Origin: Candidatus Bathyarchaeota archaeon
GTDB lineage: Archaea > Thermoproteota > Bathyarchaeia > TCS64
Assembly (NCBI GenBank): GCA_017883585.1
Contig: JADGNG010000023.1
Span: forward strand, 1-38,669
Length of the DNA stretch: 38,669 nucleotides
Reading direction: 5' to 3'
Below, in pieces: positions 15,253-22,916 of this stretch. The position numbers were made by a program, and so were the translations under genes. A model generated the notes under the pieces. It was given only the letters and a program-made list of their open reading frames with translations. It was not told the origin of the DNA and did not search any database. Within the stretch, counting starts at the first letter, position 1. Each line of letters begins with the position of its first letter.

Positions 15253-15367
15253 GGTTGGGAGTACCCTTCAACCGGCTATAAAGAATCCCCCGCCGCCTCC
15301 CCGCCAGCCGCACCTGCCCGAATTGGTTAAATACCGTGATCCGATTCAATTCGCTGGTAAGTTTAGA

Positions 15368-15546
15368 GGTGCGATCAATGCGCCAATTTATCCTCGCCTA
15401 AGCAGGAGCCAAGCTCCAAACCTAGTTCTCTCCAACGGCCGGGTCGACGCCCGGATGAATGAAACCCTGAGCTACGCAAAAGCTTTCGGCTTCTTCGGGT
15501 TTTACGCCTCCAGCCTGTGCTGAAGGGGAGGCTCGGAGGCACAGGC
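15368..15546 (+). promoter_or_regulatory. Structured leader region of the aro operon with several potential hairpins
   Basis: GGTGCG(15368-15373)/TGCGCC(15379-15384); GGAGC(15405-15409)/GCTCC(15413-15417); CCGGG(15439-15443)/CCCGG(15450-15454); GCCTGTGC(15513-15520)/GCACAGGC(15539-15546); alternative GCCTCC(15506-15511) with GGAGGC at 15527-15532 or 15535-15540. Confidence 0.5.
15455..15523 (+). CDS. Candidate Phe/Tyr-rich leader peptide of the aromatic amino acid operon
   Basis: ATG AAT GAA ACC CTG AGC TAC GCA AAA GCT TTC GGC TTC TTC GGG TTT TAC GCC TCC AGC CTG TGC TGA = [22 protein letters not shown]; 6 of 22 residues are F/Y; stop is 23 nt before the DAHP synthase ATG. No clear Shine-Dalgarno of its own. 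Confidence 0.45.
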
Positions 15547-16380
15547 ATGTCGAAACTAGTGATATCTCAGAAGATCAAGCTCGCCGTGAAGAATGGGCAC
15601 GGCTGCGTCAGGATAAGGGTCGGGAACGTGACCATCGGTTGCGACCAGATCGTCGTTATGGCGGGGCCGTGTAGCGTAGAGAGCAGGGAGCAGGTGCTTG
15701 AGACGGCACGCATCGTCAAAGCCGCGGGCGGGCACATCCTCAGGGGCGGCGCTTTCAAGCCGCGAACCCTCCCCTACAGCTTCCAGGGACTCGGGGAGGA
15801 GGGGCTCAAGATACTCGCCGAGGCCAGGGACGAGACAGGTCTCCCGATTGTTACCGAGGTGATGGCGCCCGAGGACGTCGAGCTGGTCGAGTCCTACGCG
15901 GACATACTCCAGATCGGCGCCCGGAACATGCAGAACTTCACCCTCCTCAAGCGGGTGGGGCGTGCCGTCAAGCCGGTGATGCTTAAGAGGGGAATGTCCG
16001 CCACAATCGAGGAGTGGCTCGGCTGCGCCGAGTACATCCTCAACGAGGGCAACCCCAACGTCATACTCTGCGAGCGCGGGATACGCACATACGAGACCAT
16101 CACGAGGAACACCCTCGACGTCTCGGCAGTGCCGGTGATCAAGCAGCTCAGCGACCTGCCTGTGGTCATTGACCCGAGCCATGGCACGGGGATCAGGAGC
16201 CTCGTAGCACCGATGGCGAAGGCGGGTGTCGCCGCGGGGGCAGACGGCCTCATAATCGAGGTCCACCCCCACCCCGAGAAGGCGCTCAGCGACGGCGACC
16301 AGAGCCTCCACCCGCCTGAGTTTGCGGACCTGATGCGTGAGCTGGCCCCTATCGTGGGGGCCGTGGGGAAAAGGCTCTGA
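15547..16380 (+). CDS. 3-deoxy-7-phosphoheptulonate (DAHP) synthase
   Basis: [17 protein letters not shown]...[55 protein letters not shown]...VIDPSHGTG; ggag 8 nt upstream of ATG 15547 (GTG 15517 is an alternative in-frame start). Confidence 0.96.
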
Positions 16381-16381
16381 T

Positions 16382-17482
16382 ATGTGCCTCGAAGCTTACA
16401 AGGCCGCCCAAGTCCACCTTGGGGTGAGGAGTTACCCGGTCCTCGTCGGGGGCGGGCTCCTCATACGGCTCGATGAGGCGATCTCCGAGTACATCCCAGG
16501 CGTAACTGGGTGCATTATTGTCACATCGCAGTCCGTGGACGCCCTCTACGGAGGGCAGGCTATGGCTGCACTTGAGGGGCTGAACCCGGGGAAGTTCATC
16601 GTGCCCGAGGGGGAGGACGCCAAAACCTGGGGTGCGACCGAAAAGTTGCTCGGCGGCATCATAGGACACGGATTAGACCGCAGGGGCGTCGTCGTCGCCC
16701 TCGGTGGGGGCTCAGTCGGCGACTCAGCCGGATTTGCAGCTAGCATCTACATGCGCGGGATACGCGTCGTCCAGGTACCCACCACCCTCCTCGGACAGGT
16801 GGACAGCGGCATCGGAGGCAAGACGGCTGTGAACCACCCCTCAGGGAAGAACCTTATCGGTAGCTTCCACCAACCGAGCCTCGTCGCCTGCGACACCGCG
16901 CTGCTCGCGACGCTCCCCAGGAGGGAGCTGTGCAGCGGCCTCGCCGAGGTGGCGAAGTACGGAGTTGTCTCAGACGCTATCCTCTACAAAGGGCTTGAGG
17001 TAGAGGTAGAAGGCATCCTCTCCGGGGACGCTGAGCGGCTCCGCTGGATAGTGGGGCGCTGCGCCGTCTCGAAGGCCCGCTACATCAAGGCGGACGAAAG
17101 GGACGACGGCGGGGTACGCGCCGCTCTCAACTACGGCCACACCGTTGGCCACGCTGTCGAGACGCTCTCGGGTCACACGATCCGCCACGGTGAGGCGGTC
17201 GCGATCGGGATGGTCGCGGCTTCACGTGTCGCCCACAGTCTCGGGCTGCTCAAACAGGCCGACCTGGTTAGGCAGATCAACCTGCTTCATCGACTTGGGC
17301 TGTCGGTCGATGTCCCCTACAGGCTCGACGAGGTCATTCCACTAATGAAGCGAGACAAGAAGGCCGAGGCCAGCTCGATCCGCCTCGTCCTCCCCACCGG
17401 GATAGGCTCCGAGACGGTCGTCCGGGTGGCCTCGGAGACCGAGCTCCGGGGGGCACTGGGGGGATACGATGACGCGCCCTAG
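16382..17482 (+). CDS. aroB: 3-dehydroquinate synthase
   Basis: VVALGGGSVGDSAGFAASIYMRGIRVVQVPTTLLGQVDSGIGGKTAVNHPSGKNLIGSFHQP; ALNYGHTVGHAVE. Confidence 0.96.
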   Translation: MCLEAYKAAQVHLGVRSYPVLVGGGLLIRLDEAISEYIPGVTGCIIVTSQSVDALYGGQAMAALEGLNPGKFIVPEGEDAKTWGATEKLLGGIIGHGLDRRGVVVALGGGSVGDSAGFAASIYMRGIRVVQVPTTLLGQVDSGIGGKTAVNHPSGKNLIGSFHQPSLVACDTALLATLPRRELCSGLAEVAKYGVVSDAILYKGLEVEVEGILSGDAERLRWIVGRCAVSKARYIKADERDDGGVRAALNYGHTVGHAVETLSGHTIRHGEAVAIGMVAASRVAHSLGLLKQADLVRQINLLHRLGLSVDVPYRLDEVIPLMKRDKKAEASSIRLVLPTGIGSETVVRVASETELRGALGGYDDAP

Positions 17483-18143
17483 GATATGCGTCGCTGTCCC
17501 CGCCACGACCACGGCGGACGCCCTGGAGACAATTCGCCACCTGGAGGAGCCCGACCTAATTGAGCTGAGGCTCGACTATACCCTCGAAGCGTTGAACCTA
17601 CGGGCACTCCGGAAATCAACCGACGTTCCACTGATCGCGACGGCGCGCCTACCCAGCCACGGTGGGAGATGGGTCAGGGGCGAGGACAAGAGGCGGGCCC
17701 TCCTCCGATCAGCCGCCAGCGAGGGATTCGACTACGTCGATGCGGAGATCGATTCATACTCAATCGGCGAACTCGCTACCGAGGTCCATGCGGCTGGGGT
17801 CAAGCTGATCGTCTCACGCCACTACCTCGATCGCGCACCTAGTCTCAATGAGATCATGGAAAAGCACATGGAGGCCAAGGGTGTGGGCGCCGACGTCGTC
17901 AAGGTCGTAGGCTCGGTGTCGTCACCCGCCGATAACCTATCATGCCTCGAGTACCTCGGAAGGGAGCCTGGGAACGTCTGCTTCAACATGGGCCCCCTCG
18001 GCGTGCCATCGCGCGTCCTCTCGCCCCTGATGGGTGGGCGCTGGACCTATGCCTCGGCGAGCGACGAGGGATGGGTTGCGCCGGGGCAGCTCACGATCGA
18101 AGCGTTGAGGGAAGCATATCGCCTCATGGGGTTCTACGATTGA
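17469..18143 (+). CDS. aroD: 3-dehydroquinate dehydratase, type I
   Basis: RICVAVPATTTADALETIRHLEEPDLIELRLDYTL...KLIVSRHYLD...VVKVVGSVSSPADNL...NMGPLGVPSRVLSPLMGGRWTYAS. Confidence 0.92.
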   Translation: MTRPRICVAVPATTTADALETIRHLEEPDLIELRLDYTLEALNLRALRKSTDVPLIATARLPSHGGRWVRGEDKRRALLRSAASEGFDYVDAEIDSYSIGELATEVHAAGVKLIVSRHYLDRAPSLNEIMEKHMEAKGVGADVVKVVGSVSSPADNLSCLEYLGREPGNVCFNMGPLGVPSRVLSPLMGGRWTYASASDEGWVAPGQLTIEALREAYRLMGFYD

Positions 18144-18979
18144 GGAGACTTTACTTAATCGGTTACCCCGTCGCCCATTCGATTAGTCCCCAGATGCAGG
18201 GTGCGGCAATCGAATCGTTGGGACTCGACTACCGATACGAGGCTATACCAGTTACCCCCGAGGGCCTCGGTAGAGCCGTCGCTGGCCTCAGGGATCCCTC
18301 AGTCGCCGGTTTCAACGTCACCATCCCATACAAGGGTGCCATCCTCCCCCTCCTCGACGAGGTCGACGCCACAGCGAGAGCTGTAGGCGCTGTGAATACT
18401 GTAGTGAATGAGGGCGGGCGCATAAAGGGCTACAACACGGACTCCCCCGCAGCCGTCAGGGCGCTGGGCGAAGCCTACGGTGACCTCGGCGGCTGTAGGG
18501 TTGTAATCTTTGGAGCAGGCGGTGCGGCCCGCGCTGTCGCATTCGGGCTGGTCCCGAAGGCGAGGTGGATAAGGATATTCGCTCGCGACGCCGCGAAGGC
18601 GGAGAACCTCGCGAGTGATATCCGTAGACAGCACGATGTCGACGTGCTCGGTGCAGGGCTCGTGGGGGCACAGTGTAGCGTCGGAGCTGCTGACATCCTC
18701 GTCAACGCGACTCCCGTGGGCATGTCCCCTAACGTGGGCAACAGCCCAGTCGATGCATGTATACTCCACTCCAGCTTACTCGTTTTCGACCTCATTTATA
18801 GCCCCGAGCGGACCCGACTCCTACAAGACGCCGAGGCAGTCGGCGCGAAGACACTCGGCGGGTTAACGATGCTCGTCTACCAGGGGGCGGAGGCTCTGAG
18901 GCTCTGGACGGGCAGGCGGGCGCCGGAGGACGTGATGATGGGCGCCGCGAGGCGCGCTCTCGGGGGTGGTACGCGTTGA
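18140..18979 (+). CDS. aroE: Shikimate dehydrogenase
   Basis: TTG start at 18140: LRRLYLIGYPVAHSISPQMQGAAIESLGLDYRYEAIPV...GFNVTIPYKG...AVNTVVNEGGRIKGYNTDSPA...GAGGAARAV. Confidence 0.95.
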   Translation: MRRLYLIGYPVAHSISPQMQGAAIESLGLDYRYEAIPVTPEGLGRAVAGLRDPSVAGFNVTIPYKGAILPLLDEVDATARAVGAVNTVVNEGGRIKGYNTDSPAAVRALGEAYGDLGGCRVVIFGAGGAARAVAFGLVPKARWIRIFARDAAKAENLASDIRRQHDVDVLGAGLVGAQCSVGAADILVNATPVGMSPNVGNSPVDACILHSSLLVFDLIYSPERTRLLQDAEAVGAKTLGGLTMLVYQGAEALRLWTGRRAPEDVMMGAARRALGGGTR

Positions 18980-19482
18980 ACGTGGCTCTATTTGGCTTCA
19001 TGGGGGTGGGCAAGACCACCGTCGGCAGGCTCCTCGCCACCCAACTAGAGTACACCTTTGTCGACTCTGACGCCGAGGCGGAGAGGGAGGCGGGGATGAG
19101 GATCTGTGAGGTCTTCGCGAGCCTCGGCGAGCCCGCGTTCCGCACGCTGGAGCACGGGGTTGTGCAGCGCCTCAGCGCGGGGGACGGTCAGGTGATCGCC
19201 CTAGGCGGCGGCGTCGTCCTCGACCCCCTCAACACTGAGCTCCTCCGCCGCTCAAGCCGGATGGTCCTCCTCACGGCGAGCCCAGAGGAGATAAGCCTCC
19301 GCACCTGGTTGGACAAGACCCGCCCACTGCTCGCTGGGGAGGACCGGCTCGGCAGGATCAGGATGCTCCTCGACGAGAGGCGTGAGCGGTACCTGGCGGC
19401 GGCTGACATGGTGGTGGACACTAACGGCGTGCCGCCGATCCGGGTCGCCAAGGCGATCAAAGAGCGACTGGAGGCTATGTAA
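18976..19482 (+). CDS. aroK: Shikimate kinase, P-loop (bacterial AroK/AroL) type
   Basis: TTG start; VALFGFMGVGKTTVGRLLATQLEYTFVDSDAEAEREAGMRICEVFASLGEPAFRTLE...VIALGGGVVLDPLN...RPLL. Confidence 0.93.
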   Translation: MNVALFGFMGVGKTTVGRLLATQLEYTFVDSDAEAEREAGMRICEVFASLGEPAFRTLEHGVVQRLSAGDGQVIALGGGVVLDPLNTELLRRSSRMVLLTASPEEISLRTWLDKTRPLLAGEDRLGRIRMLLDERRERYLAAADMVVDTNGVPPIRVAKAIKERLEAM

Positions 19483-20744
19483 TGAATGTCATTGTGAGTC
19501 GCTCCGAGGTCGATGGCACCCTCACCGCGCCATCCTCAAAGAGCATGACCCACCGCGTCCTTGTCCTCTCCGCCCTCGCTAACGGTAAGAGCACTATAGT
19601 GAACCCACTGACCGCAGACGACACGGAGGCGACCGCTTCGATGCTCAACAAGCTGGGTATCGTCCTCATCCGCAGCGAAAAGTGGACCGTTGAGGGTGGC
19701 GAGTTCAAAGCCCCGGCAGTCGATCTCCACTGCGGCGAGTCGGGCACGACACTTCGGTTTATGGCGGCGGTCTGCGCCCTCATCGACGGCGAGTGCCACC
19801 TCACGGGCGGGAAGTCACTCTATGCGCGCCCCATGGGGCCGCTCCTCGACGCCCTCACCCAGATAGGGGTCAAGAGTACGAGCCGATGCGGCCTTCCCCC
19901 TGTAACTATAACGGGTAACGGGAGGATCAGGGGTGGAGAGGCTAGGCTACCCGGCGACATTAGCAGCCAGTTCGTCTCCACACTCCTCGCTGTCGCCCCG
20001 CTCGCCGATGCGCCTGTCGAGATTAGTCTCACGACCCAGCTCGAATCTAGGCCGTATGTCGCCATGACGATGGACGCGATGAGGGCCTTCGGCGTCGAGG
20101 CGCGTGCCACGCCAGACATGAGGCGGCTCACCGCTCCTCTGGGGCCCTACAAGGCTTCCACGGTGGAGGTGGAGGGGGACTGGTCCTCGGCCGCCTACGT
20201 CCTCGCGGCGGGTGCCCTAACCGGCAGTGTGACGCTCAGGGGATTGAACCAAGCAAGCTCACAGGCGGACAGGGCGATCATTGAGATACTTTCCCGGATG
20301 GGCGCCGATGTATCCACAAACGGTGGCACAATCAAGATCTCAAAGTCCCTGCTGAGGGGGATCAGCACCGACCTCAGCGACTGCCCCGACCTCTTCCCCG
20401 TCGTCTCGGCACTCTGCGCCGCGGCGAAGGGGGAGAGCACCCTCACCGGGCTCGGGAGGCTGAGATTTAAGGAGTCGAACAGGGTCGCGGCGATGGCGGA
20501 GGGGCTGACCCGGATGGGGATCAAGATGAAATGCAATTCGGATTTCGCCCGAATCACCGGAGGCACCCCGAAGGGGGCCGAGGTGGACCCCTGGAGGGAC
20601 CACAGGATAGCGATGTCACTGGCCGTCCTTGCTCTCGTAGCGGAGGGGGAGACGAAGATCAGCGACGCTTGGTGCGTCTCGAAGTCCTACCCGGGCTTCT
20701 GGGGCGACTTCGCGGCGATCGGAGGGAGGTTTGAGAAGGCATGA
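19482..20744 (+). CDS. aroA: 3-phosphoshikimate 1-carboxyvinyltransferase (EPSP synthase)
   Basis: GTLTAPSSKSMTHRVLVLSALANGKSTI...CGESGTTLRFMAAVCAL...RFKESNRVAAMAEGL...DHRIAMSLAVLALVAEG. Confidence 0.97.
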   Translation: MNVIVSRSEVDGTLTAPSSKSMTHRVLVLSALANGKSTIVNPLTADDTEATASMLNKLGIVLIRSEKWTVEGGEFKAPAVDLHCGESGTTLRFMAAVCALIDGECHLTGGKSLYARPMGPLLDALTQIGVKSTSRCGLPPVTITGNGRIRGGEARLPGDISSQFVSTLLAVAPLADAPVEISLTTQLESRPYVAMTMDAMRAFGVEARATPDMRRLTAPLGPYKASTVEVEGDWSSAAYVLAAGALTGSVTLRGLNQASSQADRAIIEILSRMGADVSTNGGTIKISKSLLRGISTDLSDCPDLFPVVSALCAAAKGESTLTGLGRLRFKESNRVAAMAEGLTRMGIKMKCNSDFARITGGTPKGAEVDPWRDHRIAMSLAVLALVAEGETKISDAWCVSKSYPGFWGDFAAIGGRFEKA

Positions 20745-21838
20745 GCAACAGCATAGGAACAGCTTTTAGGGTAACGAGCCTCGGCGAGAGCCACGGCAGG
20801 TGCATCGGCGTCGTCATCGACGGCTGCCCTGCGGGGCTCACGATAGATGAGGAGGCGCTCTACCGCATGATGGAGCGGAGGCGCCCAGGCACAAGCGCCG
20901 TCACGACGGGCAGGAGTGAGACCGATAAGGTCGAGATACTGTCCGGGGTCCACGAAAGGCATACTACGGGAGCGCCGATCCTGATGCTCACGTGGAACCG
21001 TGACCACGACTCGTCGAGTTACGACCAGATTAAAAGCAAACCCCGGCCTGGGCACGCCGATTACACCGCCTGGGCACGCTACGGTGGCTTCAATGACCAC
21101 CGAGGCGGTGGTAGGGCGTCAGGCCGCGTCACCGCGGGTTTCGTCATGGCGGGTGCAGTCGCCAAACAATTACTATTAACCATCGGGGTCGAGGTACATG
21201 CCTACACGCGCGCTATCGGGGGCAGAGAGGCACCGGAACCTACACTCGACCAGATCAAAAAGGCGGCGGCAAGCATCGTCGGCTGCCTCGACCCGTCAGC
21301 ATCCGATAAGATGGTTTGGGTCATTGAGAAGGCGAAGACCGAGGGTGACAGCGTCGGAGGCGTCGTGGAGTGCGTTTGCCTCGGCCTCCCAGCCGGGGTC
21401 GGGCAGCCAGTCTTCGAAACAATCGAGGGGGACATATCCAAAGCGCTCTTCGCGGTCCCCGCCGTGAAGGCCGTGGAGTTCGGCGCCGGGATCAGGCTCG
21501 CTTCAATGCGTGGCTCGGAGGCGAACGACCTCTACATCGCCGAGAGCGGTATAATAGGGACAGTGACGAACAACTCGGGCGGTGTCCTCGGCGGTATCAC
21601 GACGGGCACCCCCATAGTCGTCCGCGCAGCCTTCAAGCCAACTCCCAGCATCGCCAAAGCGCAGAGAACTATCGACCTCGCGACACGAAGCGAGGCCGAG
21701 ATCAACGTGGGCGGCAGACACGACCCCTGCATAGTCCCCAGGGCCGTCCCTGTTGTCGAGGCGATGGTCGCCATAACCCTCGCAGACCACGCCCTCAGGA
21801 GGGGACTCATCACGCAGGTACTAGGTGAAAGGCGATGA
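20741..21838 (+). CDS. aroC: Chorismate synthase
   Basis: MSNSIGTAFRVTSLGESHGRCIGVVIDGCPAGL...RPGHADYTAWARYGGFNDHRGGGRASGR...GGRHDPCIVPRAVPVVEAM. Confidence 0.97.
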   Translation: MSNSIGTAFRVTSLGESHGRCIGVVIDGCPAGLTIDEEALYRMMERRRPGTSAVTTGRSETDKVEILSGVHERHTTGAPILMLTWNRDHDSSSYDQIKSKPRPGHADYTAWARYGGFNDHRGGGRASGRVTAGFVMAGAVAKQLLLTIGVEVHAYTRAIGGREAPEPTLDQIKKAAASIVGCLDPSASDKMVWVIEKAKTEGDSVGGVVECVCLGLPAGVGQPVFETIEGDISKALFAVPAVKAVEFGAGIRLASMRGSEANDLYIAESGIIGTVTNNSGGVLGGITTGTPIVVRAAFKPTPSIAKAQRTIDLATRSEAEINVGGRHDPCIVPRAVPVVEAMVAITLADHALRRGLITQVLGERR

Positions 21839-22110
21839 CATACAAGGAAGAGATAAACGGGCTCAGAAAGGAGATCAACAGGCTAAACGGCGAGATTCTA
21901 GACAGGCTCGCGGAACGCGTCGACGTTGCGAGGGAGATCGCGGGAGTGAAGAAGCGCCACGACAAGCCCATCGTGGATGCAACCCGTGAACGTGCCGTCC
22001 TCGACCAGGCGCGAGTGCAGGCAGCCAAGCGGGGTCTCGACCCCGACGGCGTAGAGAGGATATACCGGGCAATAATCGACCTGTGCGTCGAGGTAGAGGA
22101 GAGCCTATGA
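21835..22110 (+). CDS. Chorismate mutase (AroQ type)
   Basis: LRKEINRLNGEILDRLAERVDVAREIAGVKKRHDKPIVDATRERAVLDQARVQAAKRGLDPDGVERIYRAIIDLCVEVEE. Confidence 0.92.
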   Translation: MTYKEEINGLRKEINRLNGEILDRLAERVDVAREIAGVKKRHDKPIVDATRERAVLDQARVQAAKRGLDPDGVERIYRAIIDLCVEVEESL

Positions 22111-22916
22111 AAGTAGCCTACCAAGGGATGCCCGGAGCCTACAGCGAGGCAGCCGTCATCCAGCGCTGGGGTGACGCCGCCGAGCCGGTCCCTAGGCCCT
22201 ACCTCGAGGACGTCTTCGACGCCATAGAGGCAGGGGAGGCCGATGCGGGCCTCGTCCCAGTCGAGAACACGATTGAGGGGAGCATAACCCGCACCTTCGA
22301 CCTCCTCAACGAGAAGAGTCTCACGGTGCTGGGGGAGACCGTCTTCAGGGTCGTCCACTGTCTAATAACCAACCCCGGCGTAGGACCCGGGGACATCAAG
22401 AAGGTCTACTCCCACCCCCAAGCCCTAGGCCAGACGCGCGCCTACATCGCTGCCCACGGATACGAGCCCGTCAACTACTACGACACCGCGGGGGCAGTGA
22501 AGATGATCAGAGACGGGGGGCTCCTCGACGCCGCGGCCATCGCCAGCGAGCGGGCGGCCGAGATATACGGGATGAAGGTGCTCGACCGCGGGATAGAAAC
22601 CGACGGGGCGAACTATACGCGCTTCCTCACCATCGGATATGGCGCCACACCAGCGACGGGGAGGGACAAAACGAGCATCGCCTTCATCGTCAACCATAAG
22701 CCCGGGACCCTGATAGCCGCCCTGCGCGCCCTCGCTGACCGCCGCCTCAACCTTACCAAGATTGAGTCACGCCCCTACCTTGGCCGCCCGTGGGAGTACG
22801 TCTTCTTCGTCGACTTCGAGGGGCACAGAGACGAGCCCGTCTCCGCCGAGACCCTACGCGAGATGGGGGCCAACGCGAAGAGCCTGAAGATCCTCGGCTC
22901 CTACCCCAGGGCTTAG
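22107..22916 (+). CDS. pheA: Prephenate dehydratase with C-terminal ACT domain
   Basis: MKVAYQGMPGAYSEAAVIQRWG...GLVPVENTIEGSITRTFDLL...YTRFLTIG...KTSIAFIVNHKPGTLIAALRALADRRLNLTKIESRPYLGRPWEYVFFVDFEGH. Confidence 0.96.
   Translation: MKVAYQGMPGAYSEAAVIQRWGDAAEPVPRPYLEDVFDAIEAGEADAGLVPVENTIEGSITRTFDLLNEKSLTVLGETVFRVVHCLITNPGVGPGDIKKVYSHPQALGQTRAYIAAHGYEPVNYYDTAGAVKMIRDGGLLDAAAIASERAAEIYGMKVLDRGIETDGANYTRFLTIGYGATPATGRDKTSIAFIVNHKPGTLIAALRALADRRLNLTKIESRPYLGRPWEYVFFVDFEGHRDEPVSAETLREMGANAKSLKILGSYPRA

Follow-up and report, generated by a model that had tools for sequence, protein, structure and literature searches.

What controls the aromatic amino acid operon of a Candidatus Bathyarchaeota archaeon, and does an upstream reading frame let it sense phenylalanine? 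This question is raised by the stretch of DNA analysed here (38,669 nt, hereafter the window). Amino-acid operons sense their product via repressors, riboswitches, T-boxes or leader-peptide stalling. An earlier note on the window had proposed that a separate leader peptide starting at 15455, with a run of Phe and Tyr codons, controls the operon through ribosome stalling that opens a hairpin at the DAHP synthase start. The features concerned are as follows.

15547-22916, + strand: operon of DAHP synthase, aroB-D-E-K-A-C, chorismate mutase and prephenate dehydratase (Pfam matches PF00793, PF01761, PF01487, PF08501, PF01202, PF00275, PF01264, PF01817 and PF00800)
15547-16380, + strand: DAHP synthase, first enzyme of the operon (Pfam)
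15455-15523, + strand: the earlier note's 22-codon ORF, with an unconserved ATG; 3' end of the shifted frame described below
15512-15546, + strand: hairpin GCCTGTGC / GCACAGGC around the Shine-Dalgarno (SD) sequence of DAHP synthase; the shifted frame ends inside it

A conserved entry cassette upstream of DAHP synthase

The 22-codon ORF can be read from the sequence at 15455-15523 (+). Its start is not conserved among relatives, since ATG 15455 is replaced by GAA in G002 and by TAT in G005, the two closest congeners, and a separate leader ORF starting there was rejected for this reason. The frame containing this ORF is open from 15110 (137 codons), and its relevant part begins at a conserved motif at 15377. 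In relatives, the sequences preceding the DAHP synthase gene share a promoter-near block consisting of a TATA box and GGTG-N6-ATG-CGC-CAA-TTY. In the window, this block (TATA box, SD and ATG CGC CAA TTT at 15378-15389) lies 77 bases upstream of 15455, and it is ATG 15378, preceded by the SD GAGGTG, that is the conserved start rather than ATG 15455.

15327-15333, + strand: TATA-like box TTAAATA; a TATA-like box is present in most of 46 related loci
15366-15371, + strand: SD GAGGTG, 6 nt before ATG 15378
15378-15401, + strand: entry ORF ATG CGC CAA TTT ATC CTC GCC TAA (MRQFILA, stop), conserved
15383-15389, + strand: proposed shift site C_CAA_TTT; CAA followed by TTY or TAY, with a preceding C, in 46/46 loci
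15387-15389, + strand: proposed hungry codon TTT (Phe); -1 re-pairing reads CCA_ATT
15377-15523, + strand: frame entered by the proposed shift; its 48 codons (NAPIYPRL...) end at TGA 15521-15523

The TATA-like box is located 37-53 nt upstream of the NTG start in most of the 46 related loci, and transcription is predicted to start about 20-25 nt upstream of ATG 15378. The distance between SD and NTG is 3-7 nt in most loci and 6 nt in the window's genus. All 20 operon-head loci of the window's family encode M-R/H/L-Q-F, with ATG, GTG or TTG as the start in 19 of them. A pattern search for the block in 257 genomes of the class gave matches in 10, all from the window's family, and an Rfam search of the window returned nothing at gathering score.

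The same cassette opens HTH and HTH-transketolase genes in relatives

Some relatives' aromatic operons begin with a gene in which an N-terminal domain, here named HTH, is fused to the N-terminal part of transketolase (PF00456), and the block stands at the 5' end of this gene. The HTH label rests on f30-type homologues that match winged-helix families, Pfam itself not recognising the domain in this family. Read from one base 5' of the ATG, the block encodes the conserved N-terminus (N/D)APIPLSxxQLxDLRR. Besides the HTH-transketolase genes of aromatic operons, the block (SD, NTG, C_CAA_TTY or C_CAA_TAY) opens stand-alone HTH genes of 103-127 aa with the same layout. In total, 46 loci were compared, from the window's family and five further families (21 lineage groups, mostly draft MAGs). 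Across them, SD, NTG, one to three codons, CAA and TTY/TAY stand in one frame, with HTH or HTH-transketolase in the -1 frame, and what never varies in the cassette is C_CAA with a Phe or Tyr codon after it. Examples outside the operon heads of the window's genus include:

Stand-alone HTH gene: GTG CAT CAA CTC CAA TAT (MHQLQY)
Stand-alone HTH gene: ATG TCC CAC CAA TTC (MSHQF)
Stand-alone HTH gene: GTG ACC CAC TAC CAA TAT (MTHYQY)
G040, other family: MKRQYDVMKRQF, directly before an aromatic operon
G410, other family: MHQYLWKTSQRQF
G436, other family: MKHQY
G454, other family: MESQYQF
G387 and G412, other families: MPRQY-stop and MTRQY-stop

G410, G454 and G436 also have an HTH-transketolase gene heading a DAHP synthase-aroB-aroD-aroE operon, and stand-alone copies are found near genes resembling AMP ligases, IOR and transporters. 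The motif of the HTH gene in G040 (L166) is doubled, and the adjoining aromatic operon looks to be of the alternative (ADTHS) type. The cassette was not seen at the distant HTHs L198, L200 and L214 (f62, f66). The window's genome has a transketolase N-terminal gene elsewhere (L189, G000:C87), divergent from another HTH gene, with the cassette absent.

Missing starts, codon choice and selection on the shifted frame

The comparative case for recoding is strong. Two hallmarks of programmed frameshifting were found: a protein frame without its own start (in 33/46 loci no canonical start within 28 nt upstream), overlapped by a frame that has SD and start, and a conserved shift site in the overlap, namely C_CAA_TWY in 46/46 loci and, in the +1 form described below, GGTG-N5-CTT_TTC in 14/14. 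The other 13 of the 46 loci have a candidate in-frame start nearby, and therefore not every copy must shift. In G010, G015, G410 and G040, a stop codon stands 4 nt before the NTG in the protein frame; in some loci the first NTG inside the protein frame comes only after codon 54, and ATG, GTG and TTG are absent from the first 60-70 protein-frame codons of G016_aro, G022_aro, G024_hth, G025_hth and G014_hth. A well-placed start (SD spacing of 3-7 nt in most loci) is offered by the NTG of the other frame alone. Immediately past the motif, the shifted frame shows 35/16/108 differences at codon positions 1/2/3, so this frame is under strong protein selection there. Downstream internal starts for HTH-transketolase were rejected, as protein selection on the frame precedes any NTG. 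Taken together, the comparison across loci establishes start, SD, motif, missing in-frame start and shifted-frame coding.

The natural exceptions agree with the frameshift reading. In G012 (L125) the NTG has become ATT and a new in-frame ATG has been gained, while G014_hth and G023_aro have in-frame ATGs and an NTG without SD.

Codon choice at the motif is unusual for these genes. Proline is encoded by CCA in 46/46 cases at the motif versus 16/121 elsewhere in the same genes, and isoleucine by ATC in 0/46 versus 102/239; CCA-only Pro and never-ATC Ile are exactly what preserves CAA-Phe/Tyr in the entry frame. When the protein frame was resampled synonymously, NTG plus CAA-Phe/Tyr was expected in 0.73 loci against 45/46 observed, a comparison that is indicative and carries no formal p-value, the loci being related and the 21 groups partly dependent. 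Third-position variation in the stand-alone genes is 0.25 per codon in the overlap versus 0.58 downstream, a reduction that dual coding predicts. The site departs from the canonical -1 slippery heptamer X_XXY_YYZ, because the move from C_CAA_UUY to CCA_AUU gives two of three pairs per tRNA, and no conserved stimulator was found downstream.

A second form with a proposed +1 shift

Profile searches in another class revealed HTH homologues whose frame is +1 to that of a short ORF having its own SD and start codon. These short ORFs read M(S)KGVxLF...stop, and GGTG-N5-CTT_TTC occurs exactly once in each of the 14 loci of f30 and f54:

L197, L199, L201-L211 and L213 (f30/f54): +1-form HTH genes, RF2-like site with a Phe codon

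CUU_U is the shift site of RF2 (PMC5009743), and Phe UUC stands where RF2 has UGA. The prfB-like combination of CUU_U with a closely spaced internal SD is found in the f30/f54 HTH genes only, and not in the window. The GGTG, which is SD-like, precedes CTT at a distance one base shorter than the 6 nt typical of -1-family starts, and a +1 slip would therefore restore the 6-nt distance. In G268, the HTH-frame GTG is followed by a stop and is therefore not the start there; in most other +1 loci the HTH-frame GTG is an alternative start. Neighbouring genes resemble, by eye, sodium:solute symporters and AMP ligases, the fragments being too short for Pfam confirmation. Three further HTH homologues, L226 (G498), L227 (G527) and L212 (G355), have differing short-ORF overlaps (KGGRFI, KGVGFI and GVGVF), which are perhaps further shift-site variants.

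The short-leader class and the DAHP synthase start

In the window's genus and in four g5 genomes, the operon head has lost its HTH-transketolase part, and the shifted frame is 45-57 codons long. In the window, this frame lacks a canonical start codon 3' of the TATA box. No amino-acid selection was detected on it in the eight short-leader genomes, where differences are flat over codon positions. Stops, in contrast, number 0 in the shifted frame versus 27 and 18 in the other two, and by composition a frame would stay open in all four lineages with a probability of about 10^-4.5. In g5 the shifted-frame stop overlaps the DAHP synthase start (ATGGTGATG, ATGGTAG), while in the window's genus the frame ends 24-26 nt before the ATG, and in three genomes it does so inside the SD-covering hairpin. 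Judged from its sequence, the short-leader shifted frame looks as a translated coupling track should. The Phe/Tyr-rich ORF of the earlier note is the end of this track in the window. As the window belongs to the short-leader class, whose shifted frame has no conserved protein, coupling there is an extrapolation. The late Phe and Tyr codons in the window's leader count against the sensor reading, as starvation would make shifted ribosomes slow down at them.

The DAHP synthase frame is also open from GTG 15517, which overlaps the shifted-frame stop (GTGCTGA), and the window's 15517-15546 stretch is almost invariant in three congeners, so that a longer N-terminus is possible. GTG 15517 is in-frame and conserved in the three congeners, yet it was retained only as an alternative because the ATG/TTG at 15547 has a well-placed GGAGG.

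Proposed mechanism and competing explanations

We consider it likely, from comparison of these sequences, that the window carries a programmed -1 frameshift cassette acting as a phenylalanine sensor and coupled to DAHP synthase. Ribosomes would bind the SD at 15366-15371 and initiate at ATG 15378. With ample Phe-tRNA, they would make Met-Arg-Gln-Phe-Ile-Leu-Ala and terminate at TAA 15399, some 145 nt upstream of DAHP synthase. With scarce Phe-tRNA, the ribosome would wait with Gln-tRNA on CAA and its A site empty at the Phe codon TTT; the Gln-tRNA could then slip back from CAA to CCA, keeping its first and third pairs, and translation would resume at ATT. The preserved C before CAA would keep the first base pair, and the third would be kept because the codon is CAA and not CAG. 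The shifted frame would run to TGA 15521, within the hairpin covering the DAHP synthase start, so that shifted ribosomes could open this start and couple their translation to that of DAHP synthase. In relatives, the cassette would gate HTH-transketolase at the operon head and stand-alone genes for the same HTH protein. Phe shortage could in this way turn on the synthesis of Phe. We infer that the slip takes place, that it depends on Phe/Tyr-tRNA, and that it leads to coupling. The wider proposal, which we hold somewhat more probable than its opposite, is a phylum-wide archaeal gating of aromatic genes by aminoacyl-tRNA-dependent frameshifting, in a -1 form (C_CAA_UUY/UAY) and a +1 form (CUU_UUC), with some of the gated genes decayed to leaders coupled to DAHP synthase.

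What speaks for hungry-codon sensing is the aromatic nature of the codon, together with the gene context. PF00425 (TrpE/PabB/MenF) is without a match in 35 of the 38 archaeal genomes checked, several of them drafts, which suggests that most of these are unable to make tryptophan; pathway output would therefore be mostly Phe and Tyr, the two codons used. The restriction to Phe and Tyr codons fits genomes mostly without TrpE-type enzymes and an operon ending in prephenate dehydratase. A Trp-codon analogue at a trp operon was considered and set aside, most of these genomes being without a PF00425 gene. A PF00425 gene is present in G012, which has naturally lost the cassette, and absent from those of its congeners that were tested; the link is weak, since cassette and gene occur together in G018 and G410.

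A constitutive programmed -1 frameshift, which would fix HTH or transketolase expression at a low level with the aromatic codon as part of the slip site and no sensor, is unlikely but deserves the most weight among the alternatives. All the recoding evidence would hold without sensing, and since non-aromatic codons after CAA are never sampled in these loci, sensing and slipping are not separated. However, TTY and TAY are both used, which differ in sequence and have their aromatic product in common, the genes belong to the aromatic pathway or lie near aryl-metabolism genes, and the +1 version also has a Phe codon in a different slip site.

Initiation of the HTH/transketolase frame at a non-NTG codon, for instance the invariant ATT/ATA, with the NTG mini-ORF as a competing overlapping uORF, seems improbable. 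AUU is a known rare start codon, and every locus has ATT or ATA for this Ile. But the SD spacing suits the NTG (3-7 nt) and not ATW, which is 8-14 nt further, and such initiation would leave CAA, the invariant preceding C and the pyrimidine after ATW unexplained.

The earlier note's model, in which stalling at the Phe/Tyr run of a 15455 leader peptide opens the 15512-15546 hairpin, is very improbable. As that note had claimed, the octamer GCCTGTGC (15512-15519) is complementary to GCACAGGC (15539-15546), which abuts ATG 15547, and GGAGG sits in the loop/3' arm. The local hairpin (15505-15549) is moderately better than dinucleotide shuffles (-22.7 kcal/mol versus -16.4 +/- 2.7, with 12/500 as good), whereas the folding of the surrounding 141 nt is unremarkable (z -0.93). 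Both the hairpin and the Phe/Tyr codons are kept in two close congeners, where the latter read FGLFGFY and GFHGFY; these codons, however, overlap a nearly invariant RNA stretch. The stem also shows no covariation, because its arms are identical in the three congeners (G000, G002 and G005), and it is missing from the other genomes with the same operon head. In addition to its unconserved ATG, the 15455 ORF has no SD. The earlier note had named a lack of conservation of the short ORF in relatives as refuting its model, and that is what the start of the 15455 ORF shows. What stands of that model is its kind: the comparative data are best read as a Phe-responsive leader ORF governing translation of an archaeal aromatic operon. 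Its anatomy and mechanism were wrong, as the conserved putative sensor is the single Phe codon after CAA (15387-15389) instead of a Phe/Tyr run, and a switch of reading frame, rather than simple stalling, is the logic that is conserved. Stalling at the run, perhaps of shifted ribosomes, may open the hairpin as an add-on in the three congeners.

An operator or structured RNA with incidental reading frames is the least credible explanation: GGUGC and GCGCC can pair in the window's genus (GGUGC-N7-GCGCC), but G023, G016, G010 and others have lost this pairing and still have NTG and CAA-TWY, stand-alone copies retain the frame logic despite different sequence, and Rfam gives no match, for which reasons it was rejected.

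Significance and comparison with known systems

No earlier report of this cassette was found in the open-access literature. The idea that starvation-induced frameshifting could itself serve as a sensor is not new, but according to a 2016 review by Atkins and co-workers hungry-codon frameshifting has no known examples of trans-frame proteins that function in starvation (PMC5009743). If the sensor reading is true, the cassette would be the first known functional hungry-codon frameshifting and a new sensing principle, and archaea would gain a leader-ORF mechanism. It would also explain HTH and HTH-transketolase genes without start codons, which are probably mis-annotated, and it would offer a compact Phe/Tyr-responsive genetic switch with two natural slip sites for comparison. 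Dozens of candidates would be added to the one archaeal -1 frameshift reported according to a 2021 review, fucA1 of Saccharolobus solfataricus (PMC8211752). The latter shares with the cassette its -1 direction and its archaeal host, but its shift divides an enzyme's N-terminal from its C-terminal part and involves no amino-acid sensor.

Similar to pheL/pheA attenuation (Rfam Phe_leader), a leader ORF with one or more Phe codons precedes a Phe operon here, and aminoacyl-tRNA supply is the proposed signal. The cassette is no attenuator of the pheL type, as it has a single conserved Phe codon, a frame change, no terminator/antiterminator structure and no Rfam match, and no hairpin is conserved where DAHP synthase starts. 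For E. coli pheL, frameshifting near its 3' end has been judged incidental (PMC5009743). In the ermC leader, antibiotic-induced shifted ribosomes translate the spacer, unfold the mRNA and permit the start of the next gene (PMC5009743). Spacer translation that opens the next start is likewise the role proposed in the window, whereas the signal is an antibiotic for ermC and, as proposed, amino-acid shortage for the cassette.

In the hungry-codon frameshifting of E. coli described by Gallant and co-workers, lack of the A-site aminoacyl-tRNA lets the P-site tRNA slip (PMC8211752); there it is an error of starvation, whereas for the cassette we propose a functional use. In architecture the cassette parallels prfB, the bacterial RF2 gene with its autoregulatory +1 frameshift, in which a short entry frame also lies near the gene start, a slow-filling A site senses, and the functional protein needs the shift; the +1 cassettes additionally share CUU_U and an SD-like sequence just upstream. 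The sensor is a stop codon in prfB, but would be Phe UUC here (Phe/Tyr in the -1 form), and the setting is archaeal. The product is an HTH regulator, an HTH-transketolase or a leader instead of a release factor, and the window's own form would be a -1 shift at C_CAA_UUY.
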